Source of the DNA: Candidatus Poribacteria bacterium
GTDB taxonomy: Bacteria; Poribacteria; DTPJ01; WJIO01
Assembly: GCA_014730235.1 (NCBI GenBank)
Contig: WJIO01000354.1
Coordinates: 1 to 22,403, forward strand
Direction: 5' to 3'
Length of the DNA stretch: 22,403 bases
Shown here: positions 392-19,045 of the stretch, one piece after another
How the letters are laid out: each line of letters starts with the position of its first letter
How positions within the stretch are numbered: the stretch's first letter is position 1
Position numbers and translations under genes: made by a program
Notes under the pieces: model-generated
The model's database searches: none
What the model was told of the DNA's origin: nothing
What the model saw: only the letters and a program-made list of their open reading frames with translations

Positions 392-1702
392 CTAACTTCT
401 TGTAGCGAATTTAGTCGCGAATATACTAACCAGACCACCCAGCATAACATACCCGCAAATTACTTCAATACCAACCACAAGCCGAGCTTTGTTTGTCAGA
501 GGAACTATATCACCATAACCCAGAGTTGTCAAGGTTACTACGCTATAATACATATAGCTTCGAAAGCATAATCGATCTTCACTAAGGTCACCAACGCTGT
601 ATGCGATTTTATCCGGGAAAAATCGCCAGTATATAATACCAAATATAAATGCTATAATAGCAGACCAACCCGCCCAGAGTTCTATGCTTCTACCGCAGTG
701 AGATGATGCTTCCCATAAAATAAACAGCAATTCCCTCCACCATATGCTTTTTCTCCATGACCTTATCCATTGTTCATCATTAATATATCTTTTAAGGTAA
801 GGGTTGGTTGAGCTATCCAGAATTATCCCGGTATCCAGTTGGTAAAAATCTGTAACCGTTCGTCTTGGTAAATTCAACTTATCCCGGGTTATGAAACTAA
901 TAATATTGCATATTACGTCGTTCCAAAAACCTGATATAACTGTATTTTCGTGATAATTAACACCCTCAAAGTTCGCAGGTAACTCAAGAGAAGCTCTACG
1001 GAAGTATAAACCGAGAGTAAAGGTAGTGTCCATGAAGTCGGTAAATCTACTCATGGTTGAGTTGGAAAAATCAGCATTTTTTCTAAAAACCGCGGAAGTA
1101 AAAAACGCCTCTTTGTCAAAAACAGAAAACTTAAAATCGGCATCACCGTGAAATTTTGCCGATATAAAATGGGCGTTATCATAAAATCTAGCACCGGTAA
1201 AATCAGCATATCCATGAAAGGATACAGCACTGAAAGCAGCGTAATTATTAAACACAGCACCAAGGAAATCGGCATCACCCTTAAACCTTGTGGAGTCAAA
1301 ACTGGATTCTCCGGCAAAATTGGTTGAGCTAAACAAGGTATAACCTTCAATATCACAGGAACGAATAACCACATCTGAGTAAATTATAAAGTTTCCTTTT
1401 TCATCCAGATTCAACTCACCGGCAGACATAACTATATCCAGATCACCTTCTATAAGCGCATTTTCAATGTTAATATCTCTTTCGGATACTATTGCAGATA
1501 GAATATCTTCGGCAGAAATTCTGGGGGGTGTTTCATCGGGCATGCCAAACAATACAAGGGGTTCTGGCTTTTGTTCATAGGTGGGAATTTGGCCCTGGCT
1601 TTCCAGTATTTCTTCTAATGTTTCCTGTGCAAGTATACTGGTGCTAAATATTAATAATAAACATATAATAATTAAACATTTTTCAAAAAATGCTATAGGC
1701 AA
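392..1702 (-). CDS. Pentapeptide-repeat protein fused to a two-helix K+ channel pore
   Basis: The protein has 436 residues from a TTG codon. An in-frame stop lies two codons upstream, and no earlier start or clear Shine-Dalgarno is visible. Residues 1-25 look like a signal peptide (hydrophobic core, then SILA before QE). Residues about 120-250 are roughly twelve A(D/N)F-type pentapeptide repeats (DADFLGAVF, YADFTGARF and similar), expected to form a right-handed beta helix. The C-terminus has a hydrophobic helix at about 342-360, a pore loop with the selectivity filter T393-L-G-Y-G-D398, and a last helix at about 405-428, as in Ion_trans_2 channels. This predicts a K+-selective pore with a large helical-solenoid domain. 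The amphipathic WWRELLFILW stretch (321-330) may be a slide helix. It lies 61 bases after the cohesin gene on the same strand and may be co-transcribed. The topology is odd; see findings. Confidence 0.82.
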   Translation of the reverse strand: MPIAFFEKCLIIICLLLIFSTSILAQETLEEILESQGQIPTYEQKPEPLVLFGMPDETPPRISAEDILSAIVSERDINIENALIEGDLDIVMSAGELNLDEKGNFIIYSDVVIRSCDIEGYTLFSSTNFAGESSFDSTRFKGDADFLGAVFNNYAAFSAVSFHGYADFTGARFYDNAHFISAKFHGDADFKFSVFDKEAFFTSAVFRKNADFSNSTMSRFTDFMDTTFTLGLYFRRASLELPANFEGVNYHENTVISGFWNDVICNIISFITRDKLNLPRRTVTDFYQLDTGIILDSSTNPYLKRYINDEQWIRSWRKSIWWRELLFILWEASSHCGRSIELWAGWSAIIAFIFGIIYWRFFPDKIAYSVGDLSEDRLCFRSYMYYSVVTLTTLGYGDIVPLTNKARLVVGIEVICGYVMLGGLVSIFATKFATRS

Positions 1703-9107: not shown

Positions 9108-9146
9108 TTGATATAAAGTTAATCGTTATGTTATAATCTAAACATA
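9108..9146 (+). promoter_or_regulatory. Sigma70 promoter with Fur/Zur-like operator for the metal ABC operon
   Basis: TTGATA (9108-9113), 18 bases, and a perfect TATAAT (9132-9137) precede the ABC ATPase gene. The dyad TATGTT-N8-AACATA (9127-9132 and 9141-9146) sits on the -10 box. Its ATGTTATA...AACAT core resembles the Zur consensus half-sites known from gamma-proteobacteria. A metal-loaded Fur-family repressor bound here would block RNA polymerase. The promoter is seen; the regulator identity is inferred. Confidence 0.6.
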
Positions 9147-9175: not shown

Positions 9176-9970
9176 ATGAAGCGGATAAATATGAAAAAAA
9201 GGACTATAGTAAAATTACAGGATGTATTTTTTTCCTATGATGAAGCTCCTGTTTTGGAAAACGTCAGCTTTGAGATTAAAGAACAGGATTTCCTGGGTAT
9301 TATTGGCCCCAACGGTGGAGGGAAAAGCACCCTATTAAAATTAATTCTTGGTTTATTAAAACCTGACAGTGGAACTATAAAGGTATTTGATACTTCCCCA
9401 AAAAAGGGAAGAAAATCTATAGGATACATGCCCCAGATATTCAAATCTGATTTTGATTTTCCCATAAGCGTTATGGAAGTTACCCTTATGGGCAGATTGG
9501 GAAAAAAAAGTCTGGGAAGAAAATACTCCCAGGAAGATATAGATATATGCCTTGATGTCCTTGAAAAGGTGGATATGAAGGATTATAAAGACCGACAGAT
9601 AAATAACTTATCCGGTGGTCAAAGGCAAAGGATATTCATCGCCAGGGCTTTGGCCACAGAGCCTAAGTTATTATTGCTTGATGAACCTGTTTCCAGTATT
9701 GATCAAAAATGGCAGCAGTCTTTTTATGAGCTTTTACACAAATTAAGTGAAAAATTGGCTATAGTTCTGGTATCCCATGATATAGGTGTTATTTCTACAT
9801 ATATAGATAAAATCGCATGTGTCAGCGGCAGCATATATTATCACGGTTCTACAAAAGATGGTTTAAGCAAAATCTCTGAGATGTATCAATGCCCCATAGA
9901 GTTATTGGTTCACGGAGTTCCTCATTCCTCTATACCGCATAGGTTGCTGGAAAGCAGAAAAGATGATTGA
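9176..9970 (+). CDS. Metal ABC transporter ATP-binding protein (ZnuC/TroB/MntB type)
   Basis: 264 residues. Walker [10 protein letters not shown] (44-52), Q-loop Q87, signature LSGGQRQR (145-152), Walker B LLLLDEP (165-171), D-loop SSID and switch H201 are all present, so the ATPase should be active. The C-terminal [10 protein letters not shown] stretch is characteristic of the zinc/manganese-uptake subfamily. It energises import of Zn2+, Mn2+ or Fe2+ through the permease encoded next, whose ATG overlaps this stop. ATG 9191 (MKKRTIVKL) is an alternative start; neither has a strong Shine-Dalgarno. No periplasmic metal-binding protein gene is in the window, so it must be elsewhere. The metal cannot be told from sequence; the Zur-like dyad favours zinc. 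Confidence 0.88.
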
Positions 9971-10784
9971 TGTCCTGCAATATGGTTTTATGAGAAATGC
10001 CCTTATGGCTGCTGTGCTGGTAGGTGTGGCTTGTGGTATCATGGGTACTTTTGTTGTGGTAAAACGAATTGTATTTATCAGCGGCGGTATAACTCATGCT
10101 GCCTTTGGTGGCATAGGTCTGGGATATTTGTTAGGAATAAATCCTGTTTTGACGGCTATACCATTTAGCATCCTGTCCGCCATAGGCATAGGACTGGTAA
10201 GCAAAAAGACCAGGATAAGCGAAGATTCAGCCATCGGTATATTATGGGCTGTGGGAATGGCCCTGGGAATACTGTTTATCGGCCTTGCACCCGGATATGC
10301 ACCGGATTTATTCAGCTACCTTTTTGGGTCTATACTGACTGTGCCTTTTTCTGATATAATTATTATGCTGGTGCTGGATGTAATCATAATTCTTGCTGTG
10401 ACGTTTCTATTTCGAGAGTTCCAGGCTTTGTCTTTTGATGAAGAGTTTTCCGAAATAGTCGGTCTGCCTACAAAATTCATTTATCTTTTATTATTATGCC
10501 TCGTGGCATTAAGTGTAATACTGCTGATTCGGGTAGTCGGCATAATTCTTGTCATTGCTCTCCTTACGATCCCCACTTCTATTACCCGGCAGTTTGTCAA
10601 AGGATTAAGAAAATTGATTTTTTATTCTACAATAAACGCCGTTATTCTTACAGTGTTGGGTTTATGGTTTTCATATATGTTTGATTTGCCATCTGGTGCA
10701 ACTATTGTTCTGGTCTTGGCTTTTGCATTTTTTCTGTCAATTTTATTCCGGCGTTTTGTCTACCAAAAGCTTCAAAAAGGATAA
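9963..10784 (+). CDS. Metal ABC transporter permease (ZnuB/TroC type)
   Basis: 273 residues, ABC-3 permease family, about eight hydrophobic helices. Family segments are in order: [20 protein letters not shown] (29-48), [17 protein letters not shown] in the middle, [15 protein letters not shown] as the cytoplasmic loop that meets the ATPase, and [17 protein letters not shown] near the C-terminus. It forms the homodimeric channel for divalent metal import. The ATG lies inside the end of the ATPase gene (8-base overlap), a classic translational-coupling arrangement that fixes the start. The next gene begins 6 bases after its stop. Confidence 0.9.
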
Positions 10785-10790
10785 ATACTT

Positions 10791-11381
10791 ATGTCTAAAA
10801 ATAAAATCACTTCTCCCTTAATAAGCGAAGCCTATTTTTCCCTTAATAAGAGGATGCGGGGGATTTTTAGCGCATTTGAAAACTTAAGTATAATTATTAA
10901 AAACCACTTAGTTTTAGTTATTATTATTATTTTTACATTCAATTTAACAGCATTATCCCAGACCCCTTACGGCCGGGGGGAAAGATACGGTGATCGGGAA
11001 GAAGCAGCTGTTCAGCAAGAAGAATACAAGGAAAGCCCTTTGCGCAGGTTTGAGATAATTTTCACCATATCCTTACCTTTTACTGCACTTCACAGCTATT
11101 TTAGTGTAAGAGGGGTAGAGATGATCCGACAGCAGAAAGTTTCACCCAATTTCAGCGATAGTCACTGGCAAATTATCGGTGGTCTTACTGTTTTATATTC
11201 AGGGTTTGTTGCCTTCTGGGATTACATGCACAACAGGGATAAGGAAATAAACAATTATCATATACCCGATGATGATTATTTCCAGGATGATCTCATGTCG
11301 GGAATCTTGAATCAGCATGAGATGTTATGCTTTACAAAGGATAATATATCTTTTCCAGTGTTAAATATGAGTTTTGATTGA
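10791..11381 (+). CDS. Unknown membrane or secreted protein with a repeat-derived N-terminus
   Basis: 196 residues; I do not recognise the family. A hydrophobic segment at 39-55 ends TALSQTP and could be a signal peptide or anchor. Two weaker hydrophobic stretches follow at about 87-105 and 126-144 (WQIIGGLTVLYSGFVAFW). The tail is Asp-rich. Residues about 16-38, ahead of the hydrophobic segment, are encoded by a dispersed repeat that recurs inverted at 15745-15815. The N-terminus may therefore be an insertion, with the ancestral start lost or replaced; M22 lies within the repeat. It is placed 6 bases after the permease stop and its own stop overlaps the next Shine-Dalgarno, so it is part of the cluster. 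Position alone does not make it a transporter subunit. Confidence 0.6.
   Translation: MSKNKITSPLISEAYFSLNKRMRGIFSAFENLSIIIKNHLVLVIIIIFTFNLTALSQTPYGRGERYGDREEAAVQQEEYKESPLRRFEIIFTISLPFTALHSYFSVRGVEMIRQQKVSPNFSDSHWQIIGGLTVLYSGFVAFWDYMHNRDKEINNYHIPDDDYFQDDLMSGILNQHEMLCFTKDNISFPVLNMSFD
10836..10903 (+). repeat. Dispersed repeat, copy 1 (in-frame in the 196-residue ORF)
   Basis: Contains CCCTTAATAAG, GGGGATTTTTAGCGC, TTGAAAACTTAA and TATAATTATT. The same blocks occur in the same order on the minus strand at 15745-15815. The left hairpin half is degraded here: a second TCCCTTAATAAG lies at 10813-10824. Confidence 0.75.
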
Positions 11382-11385
11382 GGAG
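11380..11385 (+). promoter_or_regulatory. Shine-Dalgarno of the four-cysteine micro-ORF
   Basis: GAGGAG lies 6 bases before ATG 11392. It overlaps the TGA stop of the preceding gene (11379-11381), so ribosomes finishing there are placed to reinitiate. Confidence 0.75.
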
Positions 11386-11391
11386 AAAAAT

Positions 11392-11508
11392 ATGTGTCAA
11401 TATTGTGGTGGTCCTTGGTGTTACCTTGCCGGTACCGCTTTTCTGGCCAAGATATGTCATTGGCTTATGATTAAGTGGAAGGCCAGGAAAAAATCAGTAA
11501 CAAAGTGA
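11392..11508 (+). CDS. 38-residue four-cysteine small protein
   Basis: ATG to TGA gives 38 residues. The start MCQYCGGPWCYLAG has C2, C5 and C10. The rest is amphipathic to hydrophobic (TAFLAKICHWLMIKW, with C22 and H23) and ends in a Lys/Arg-rich tail. CxxC plus two more cysteines and a histidine suggests metal (Zn or Fe-S) or redox chemistry at a membrane; this is inference only. Support for coding: the best Shine-Dalgarno in the cluster at ideal spacing, overlap of that site with the previous stop, and the nusB Shine-Dalgarno starting 2 bases after its stop. No family is recognised. It could instead act as a leader peptide coupling nusB translation. Confidence 0.65.
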   Translation: MCQYCGGPWCYLAGTAFLAKICHWLMIKWKARKKSVTK

Positions 11509-11525
11509 TCAGGAGAAATCTTAAA

Positions 11526-15622: not shown

Positions 15623-15744
15623 TAAATATTATTGCTGATATTTCTAAAATTAACTAAAACCAGATGTTGCAATGCTTAAAGAGACAATAGCAAATGAAAC
15701 TTCTTTATCACACTAAACCCGGAAAAACCAAGTATTTTAAGTAA

Positions 15745-15815
15745 TTTTCAATAATTATAATTAAGTTTTCAACCGCGCTAAAAATCCCCTATTCCCCCTT
15801 AATAAGGGGGAATAG
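15745..15815 (-). repeat. Dispersed repeat, copy 2, with a 12-bp-stem palindrome
   Basis: This is the inverted counterpart of 10836-10903. CTATTCCCCCTT (15789-15800), AAT and its exact complement (15804-15815) form the hairpin. Flanking blocks TAGCGC and TTGAAAACTTAA match copy 1. No T-run follows on either strand, so it is not an ordinary terminator. The rest of the 388-base gap from 15623 to 16010 shows only the promoter at 15938-15966. Confidence 0.8.
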
Positions 15816-15937
15816 TCTTCGCCCATTAGAGAAAAAAAGTGAGCTTAAAGTTATCTGTTGTGCCAATACTGTGAGGAATAGATTTTTTGATAATATAATA
15901 AGATATGGATTTTATGCTTGGATAAGAATTTGCTGTC

Positions 15938-17047: not shown

Positions 17048-17746
17048 TGCCCCTATAGGTTGCGCGGTATTAACGGGAAGCAATATGAACCAGATTCCCT
17101 TGAACCACTTCTGAATGATGTGGTGGAGAAGCGTCCTGAGTTGGACATAGAGAAAGTGAATGCAGATGGCATATTCAACAGCCAGCCTTGTCGGGATAAG
17201 GTCCGAGAGATTCTGGGAGAGGACGTGGAGTTGTTCTCTTCGGTAAATGCGAGAAGGAAAAAGGACATTGAGAATCCTGCCCGTGGGATCGCCAAGATCA
17301 CAAAGCATGGCAATGTGCAGTGCATCGCTGGTTACAACATGGTATTTTTGTCGAAGGATTACAGCCTGGATGCCTATATCTTTGGCTTTCCTGTTCTGAA
17401 TGCGGAAGCGCGGAAGAAACTTGAACACATGGACATGGAAGTTCCAGAGCAAGGTGAATGTGAAAAGAAAACAGAATGCAGTCCGAATTCTGAGATCGGC
17501 AGGATATATCGTATCAAAAGGGAAGTATTATCTCAGATAGATTGGGACAACTCTCAGTTCAGTTATCGCTTCAGACTGGTTTACTCCCTTCGGACAAAGA
17601 TAGAACGATTATTTTCCCGAATAAAAGAACGTTTCAAGATGCGGCGCTTTTACAAACGAGGGATGAGCAATATTCAGGGGCACATACTCAAGTTCATGAA
17701 TCTTATCCATATTCTCGCGAATGTAACGGGAACCTATGGGGTTTAG
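17048..17746 (+). pseudogene. Truncated DDE transposase (C-terminal part)
   Basis: The open frame begins after a stop at 17045-17047 and has no proper start (only TTG 17060, without Shine-Dalgarno). About 230 residues remain. The C-terminal pattern RTKIERLFSRIKERFKMRRF, then RGMSNIQGHILKFMNLIHILA, is the hallmark of IS4/IS5/IS1182-like DDE transposases around the catalytic Glu. Upstream, KVNADGIFNSQPCRDKV corresponds to the region after the second Asp. The first catalytic Asp and the DNA-binding domain are missing, so it should be inactive. I found no terminal inverted repeats. The 171 bases after it hold only a 30-codon frame and a hairpin (17847-17875). Confidence 0.72.
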
Positions 17747-18753: not shown

Positions 18754-19045
18754 TCACATAGCGCGGGACATGATTTTCTCCTGTGTTGCTTCATCCCGGT
18801 TGAATTCACCGGTAATTTTGCCCTGGGACATTACCAGTATACGGTAGCTCATGCCCAGTATTTCCGGCATTTCTGATGAGATCATAATTATTCCTATGCC
18901 CTGTCCTGCGATCTCTGACATCAGGGCATGGACTTCCGACTTGGCCCCTATGTCTATACCCCGGGTTGGTTCGTCCAGTATCAACACCCTGGAGTTAAGG
19001 GCAAGCCATTTTGATAATACCACTTTCTGCTGGTTACCGCCGGAT
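18754..19045 (-). pseudogene. Fragment of a sugar ABC transporter ATPase (RbsA/MglA type), C-terminal end
   Basis: On the minus strand the frame runs from the MITE edge: [39 protein letters not shown], then [27 protein letters not shown], to a TGA at 18754-18756. These are the signature loop, Walker B and tail of the second ATPase half of ribose/galactose-type importers. Full-length proteins have about 500 residues and only about 97 remain. The coding similarity begins exactly where MITE copy 2 starts, and the codon formed across the junction is TAA. No remaining part is found beyond the MITE. It is a dead remnant. Confidence 0.85.

Follow-up and report, generated by a model that had tools for sequence, protein, structure and literature searches.

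A probably translated 38-codon open reading frame, without detected relatives, ahead of nusB in a poribacterial operon

In this work we describe a small ORF of 38 codons (MCQYCGGPWCYLAGTAFLAKICHWLMIKWKARKKSVTK) at 11392–11508 on the forward strand of the window, the whole 22,403-nucleotide stretch of a Candidatus Poribacteria contig (WJIO01000354.1) that was analysed. On balance we favour the explanation that it is a lineage-specific orphan, probably translated and perhaps relaying ribosomes to nusB; the evidence comes from the sequence, from shuffles of the gap in which it lies and from its codon choice. The ORF runs from an ATG at 11392 to a TGA at 11506–11508, and is preceded, with a spacer of 6 nt, by an AGGAG ribosome site (11381–11385, forward strand) that has one A in common with the TGA stop (11379–11381) of the upstream gene. 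The predicted peptide contains a CxxC motif (C2 and C5), two further cysteines (C10 and C22), a histidine (H23) and the basic tail KWKARKKSVTK, and 2 nt past its stop begins a second AGGAG (11511–11515, forward strand), the likely ribosome site of nusB. The initial annotation had read all these features correctly: the ORF and its length, the ribosome site overlapping the previous stop, the four cysteines and the histidine, the basic tail and the position of the nusB site. Its remark that such an ORF is too short for usual ORF callers was not quite right, as common callers accept ORFs of 90 nt.

The size of the gap depends on where nusB begins. A mechanical ORF list places the start at GTG 11475, which overlaps the small ORF and lacks a ribosome site. 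Judging from the encoded residues, nusB probably starts instead at TTG 11526, 10 nt after the AGGAG, and extends to 11969 on the forward strand (TIGR01951, E 9e-46; PF01029), because the NusB profile alignment begins at residues encoded just past this TTG and because nusB starts in relatives match the residues found there. With this start, 144 nt lie between the upstream gene and nusB; the small ORF occupies 117 of them, and its stop is followed by 17 nt before nusB begins. Ribosomes finishing the upstream gene would then restart at the overlapping AGGAG/ATG of the small ORF, and would finish it just ahead of the nusB start, beside the nusB ribosome site; given the position of this end, the most likely effect would be that ribosome flow to nusB is maintained. 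The small ORF had been described as coupled to nusB: the tight placement stands, and translation is plausible and moderately supported, while coupling itself is possible. Simple translational coupling requires only the observed spacing.

An open frame and a ribosome site could also both have arisen by chance, remaining untranslated or translated as noise, in a gap left over from a rearrangement. We consider this the less probable course, and one to be taken seriously, as an ORF of 35 or more codons with an ATG start occurs in 5.8% of dinucleotide-shuffled 144-nt gaps when no ribosome site is demanded. When a 4-base ribosome site is required, this frequency is 0.7% (20,000 dinucleotide shuffles), and the tight architecture, for which the ORF had to start no more than 25 nt from the upstream stop, to finish no more than 30 nt from nusB and to have a 5-base site, is found in 0.1% of 60,000 gap shuffles. 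The close fit to both neighbours therefore argues against chance, and the ribosome site, the spacing and the filling of the gap argue for a translated ORF. In support of this idea, in a 660-kb sample of the genome comprising 116 co-directional gaps of 80–400 nt each, the sense strand carried two ORFs that were 35 codons or longer and had a ribosome site, compared with 0.4 in shuffled gaps and none on the antisense strand. Both look like real genes: the first resembles the N-terminal part of ClpC, and the second is presumably a small basic ribosomal-type protein, for which there was no Pfam match. The small ORF itself was left out of this count because the caller took the longer nusB start. The shuffle rate in the same survey implies that about 3–4 chance ORFs of such quality, with a site, are expected in the 5.5-Mb genome, which weakens the case for translation.

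Codon statistics point in both directions. The synonymous codons of the small ORF are gene-like (z 2.38), with a likelihood ratio for coding of 1.6 against intergenic sequence and 3.0 against wrong frames; synonymous codon choice is thus weakly in favour of coding, and counts against a chance frame. The codon score as a whole is close to neutral, and the G+C content by codon position (0.37, 0.50, 0.42, compared with 0.50, 0.36, 0.38 in genes) is as skewed in only 1.3% of gene pieces. These two properties weaken the translated reading, and the atypical G+C is what a chance frame might show; it arises in part from the second-position G of Cys, Trp and Gly codons. Taken with the architecture, we judge it probable that the small ORF is translated.

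The peptide occurs once in its own genome, in a region that is not a genomic repeat there, and no relative was found in the other genomes of the phylum (84 phylum genomes searched), in which matches at E up to 1 were scattered pieces within unrelated frames and the pattern MCxxCGGP did not occur a second time. Several hundred further genomes, phages, plasmids, PDB, Pfam, NCBIfam and PHROGs yielded no credible relative, with no family match in Pfam or NCBIfam at E 1 or in PHROGs at E 10. The candidates that did appear were rejected: a PDB match at E 0.03 was apparently spurious; the top protein match elsewhere, with E 0.009 in a single genome out of 386, was a frame whose N-terminus does not match, and was taken as chance; a DNA-pattern scan of genome contigs for MCxxCGGPW gave 29 stretches, about the chance number, none of which is a similar short protein; three matches to MCxYCGGP in viral contigs were all longer unrelated proteins; and the remaining MCxxCG starts of the source genome have no relation to the small ORF. 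Among the genomes searched, the source genome is the sole member of its family, and its nearest relative, from another family, has a NusB of only 50% identity. A 38-residue protein could escape detection at such a distance, so neighbourhoods were inspected as well. In the relatives' loci examined, no small CxxC ORF in a similar setting adjoined the upstream gene, nusB or the permease gene, and the peptide that the initial annotation suggested seeking upstream of nusB in related genomes was not found in them. With homologs in no second genome among those searched, the small ORF is not supported as a member of a conserved bacterial microprotein family. The absence of relatives in the phylum and beyond is the first reason for calling the ORF lineage-specific, and it is equally what a chance frame would give.

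The second reason is the gene order. The small ORF lies in an operon whose genes are closely packed apart from this one sizeable gap; the operon is composed of genes for a metal ABC transporter ATPase (9176–9970; PF00005 and metal-type profile models), an ABC-3 family permease (9963–10784; PF00950, E 2e-78) and an uncharacterised protein conserved across the phylum (10791–11381), all on the forward strand, followed by the small ORF, nusB and an NHL-repeat gene. A promoter-like TTGATA-18-TATAAT sequence on the same strand, 5' of the ATPase gene (9108–9137; 11 of 12 consensus positions), is a candidate operon promoter. No substrate-binding protein gene adjoins the metal ABC genes (9176–10784); two relatives (L215 and L217) appear to carry one just 5' of theirs. 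The upstream protein has 196 residues, belongs to no Pfam or NCBIfam family and is conserved in 81 of the 84 phylum genomes, with the family core ...ESALRRFEI...SLPFTAIHS...FIGxWDWLHTR.... In the relatives' loci read, its gene is usually followed by peptide deformylase (def) or methionyl-tRNA formyltransferase (fmt) and never adjoins nusB, which is preceded by lumazine synthase (ribH) in three relatives, including the nearest, and elsewhere by non-coding DNA. Synteny around the small ORF is thus not conserved in relatives, and the different neighbours indicate that the order importer, upstream gene, ORF, nusB is, for the loci examined, private to the source genome. This private order supports a lineage-specific ORF, and also agrees with a chance frame in a leftover gap. 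A degenerate dispersed repeat of about 100–130 bp, of which the genome has at least 32 copies, covers the beginning of the upstream coding sequence (10800–10916, forward strand); this suggests a rearrangement without proving one, and we count it in favour of a lineage-specific ORF. Since the N-terminus of the upstream protein is encoded within this copy, the true start of its gene may lie further in. Another copy lies at 15738–15828 on the reverse strand.

Elsewhere in the window, 17060–17746 encodes a partial DDE transposase and 18754–19023 (reverse strand) resembles the C-terminal part of a sugar-type ABC ATPase, with no Pfam match at 0.01; these fragments are possible signs of local gene decay. 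At 392–1702 (reverse strand), pentapeptide repeats and an ion-channel domain are combined in one protein.

It had been proposed that the peptide is a membrane metal-binding protein tied to the importer. Such a protein, at the membrane or its edge, would use its cysteines and histidine as metal ligands and serve the metal ABC importer, and the CxxC with C10, C22 and H23, the co-direction with the importer genes and a helix predicted at residues 15–35 are in line with it, the helix coming from a single-sequence structure model with a mean pLDDT of only 69. We nevertheless find it improbable. The hydrophobic middle that had been noted is there, but it is only moderately hydrophobic: the best 19-residue Kyte-Doolittle mean is 1.27, with K20 and H23 inside the stretch. 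The octanol-scale sum for residues 9–27 is −5.3, and membrane insertion is uncertain. The peptide has no family or PDB relative, no homolog with conserved cysteines was found, and a match to a known metal-binding family, as for a small zinc-ribbon-like protein, was absent from Pfam, NCBIfam, PHROGs and PDB. No such ORF lies near the importer permease genes in the relatives' loci examined, and in these relatives the importer genes, the upstream gene and nusB do not adjoin one another, so that the link to the importer is positional only, in an operon that is not conserved in them. Metal binding, proposed from the four cysteines and the histidine of one sequence, is unsupported. What the model suggests is a peptide that may form a short basic helix, with cysteines at its N-terminal end; translation, coupling and this helix are what we infer for the small ORF. 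That it is a newborn functional four-cysteine microprotein of the membrane edge, fixed in this lineage after a rearrangement and co-expressed with the importer and nusB, is an idea to which we give little credence.

The other function put forward was that of a leader peptide or attenuator, controlling nusB through attenuation or stalling. The stop of the small ORF 2 nt before the nusB AGGAG is the feature that would fit, and we hold this role to be very improbable. RNA folding is no better than in shuffles (z +0.40), there is no Rfam match, a scan found no terminator-like site between the small ORF and nusB, and only 17 nt lie between the two. In relatives, moreover, nusB is found without the ORF ahead of it.

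Escherichia coli MntS is a protein of about 40 residues. The small ORF is like MntS in size and in its importer context. MntS is tied to manganese import by regulation and genetics (PMC4361602), whereas the small ORF is tied to a metal importer by operon position alone. It also resembles the intergenic microproteins of 15–70 codons described by Fesenko et al. (PMC11188072), being short, intergenic, hydrophobic to basic, minimally structured and without a known domain; unlike their clusters, reported to be under purifying selection, it is a single known copy. It is also like the singleton smORFs of the GMSC catalogue, in which about half of the families consist of one sequence (PMC11364881), since it is known from one genome. 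For annotation, our observations suggest that nusB begins at TTG 11526 instead of GTG 11475. Should the small ORF be translated, it would add an orphan microprotein whose origin can be followed: an operon rearranged in one lineage, and the resulting gap now occupied by a coupled ORF.
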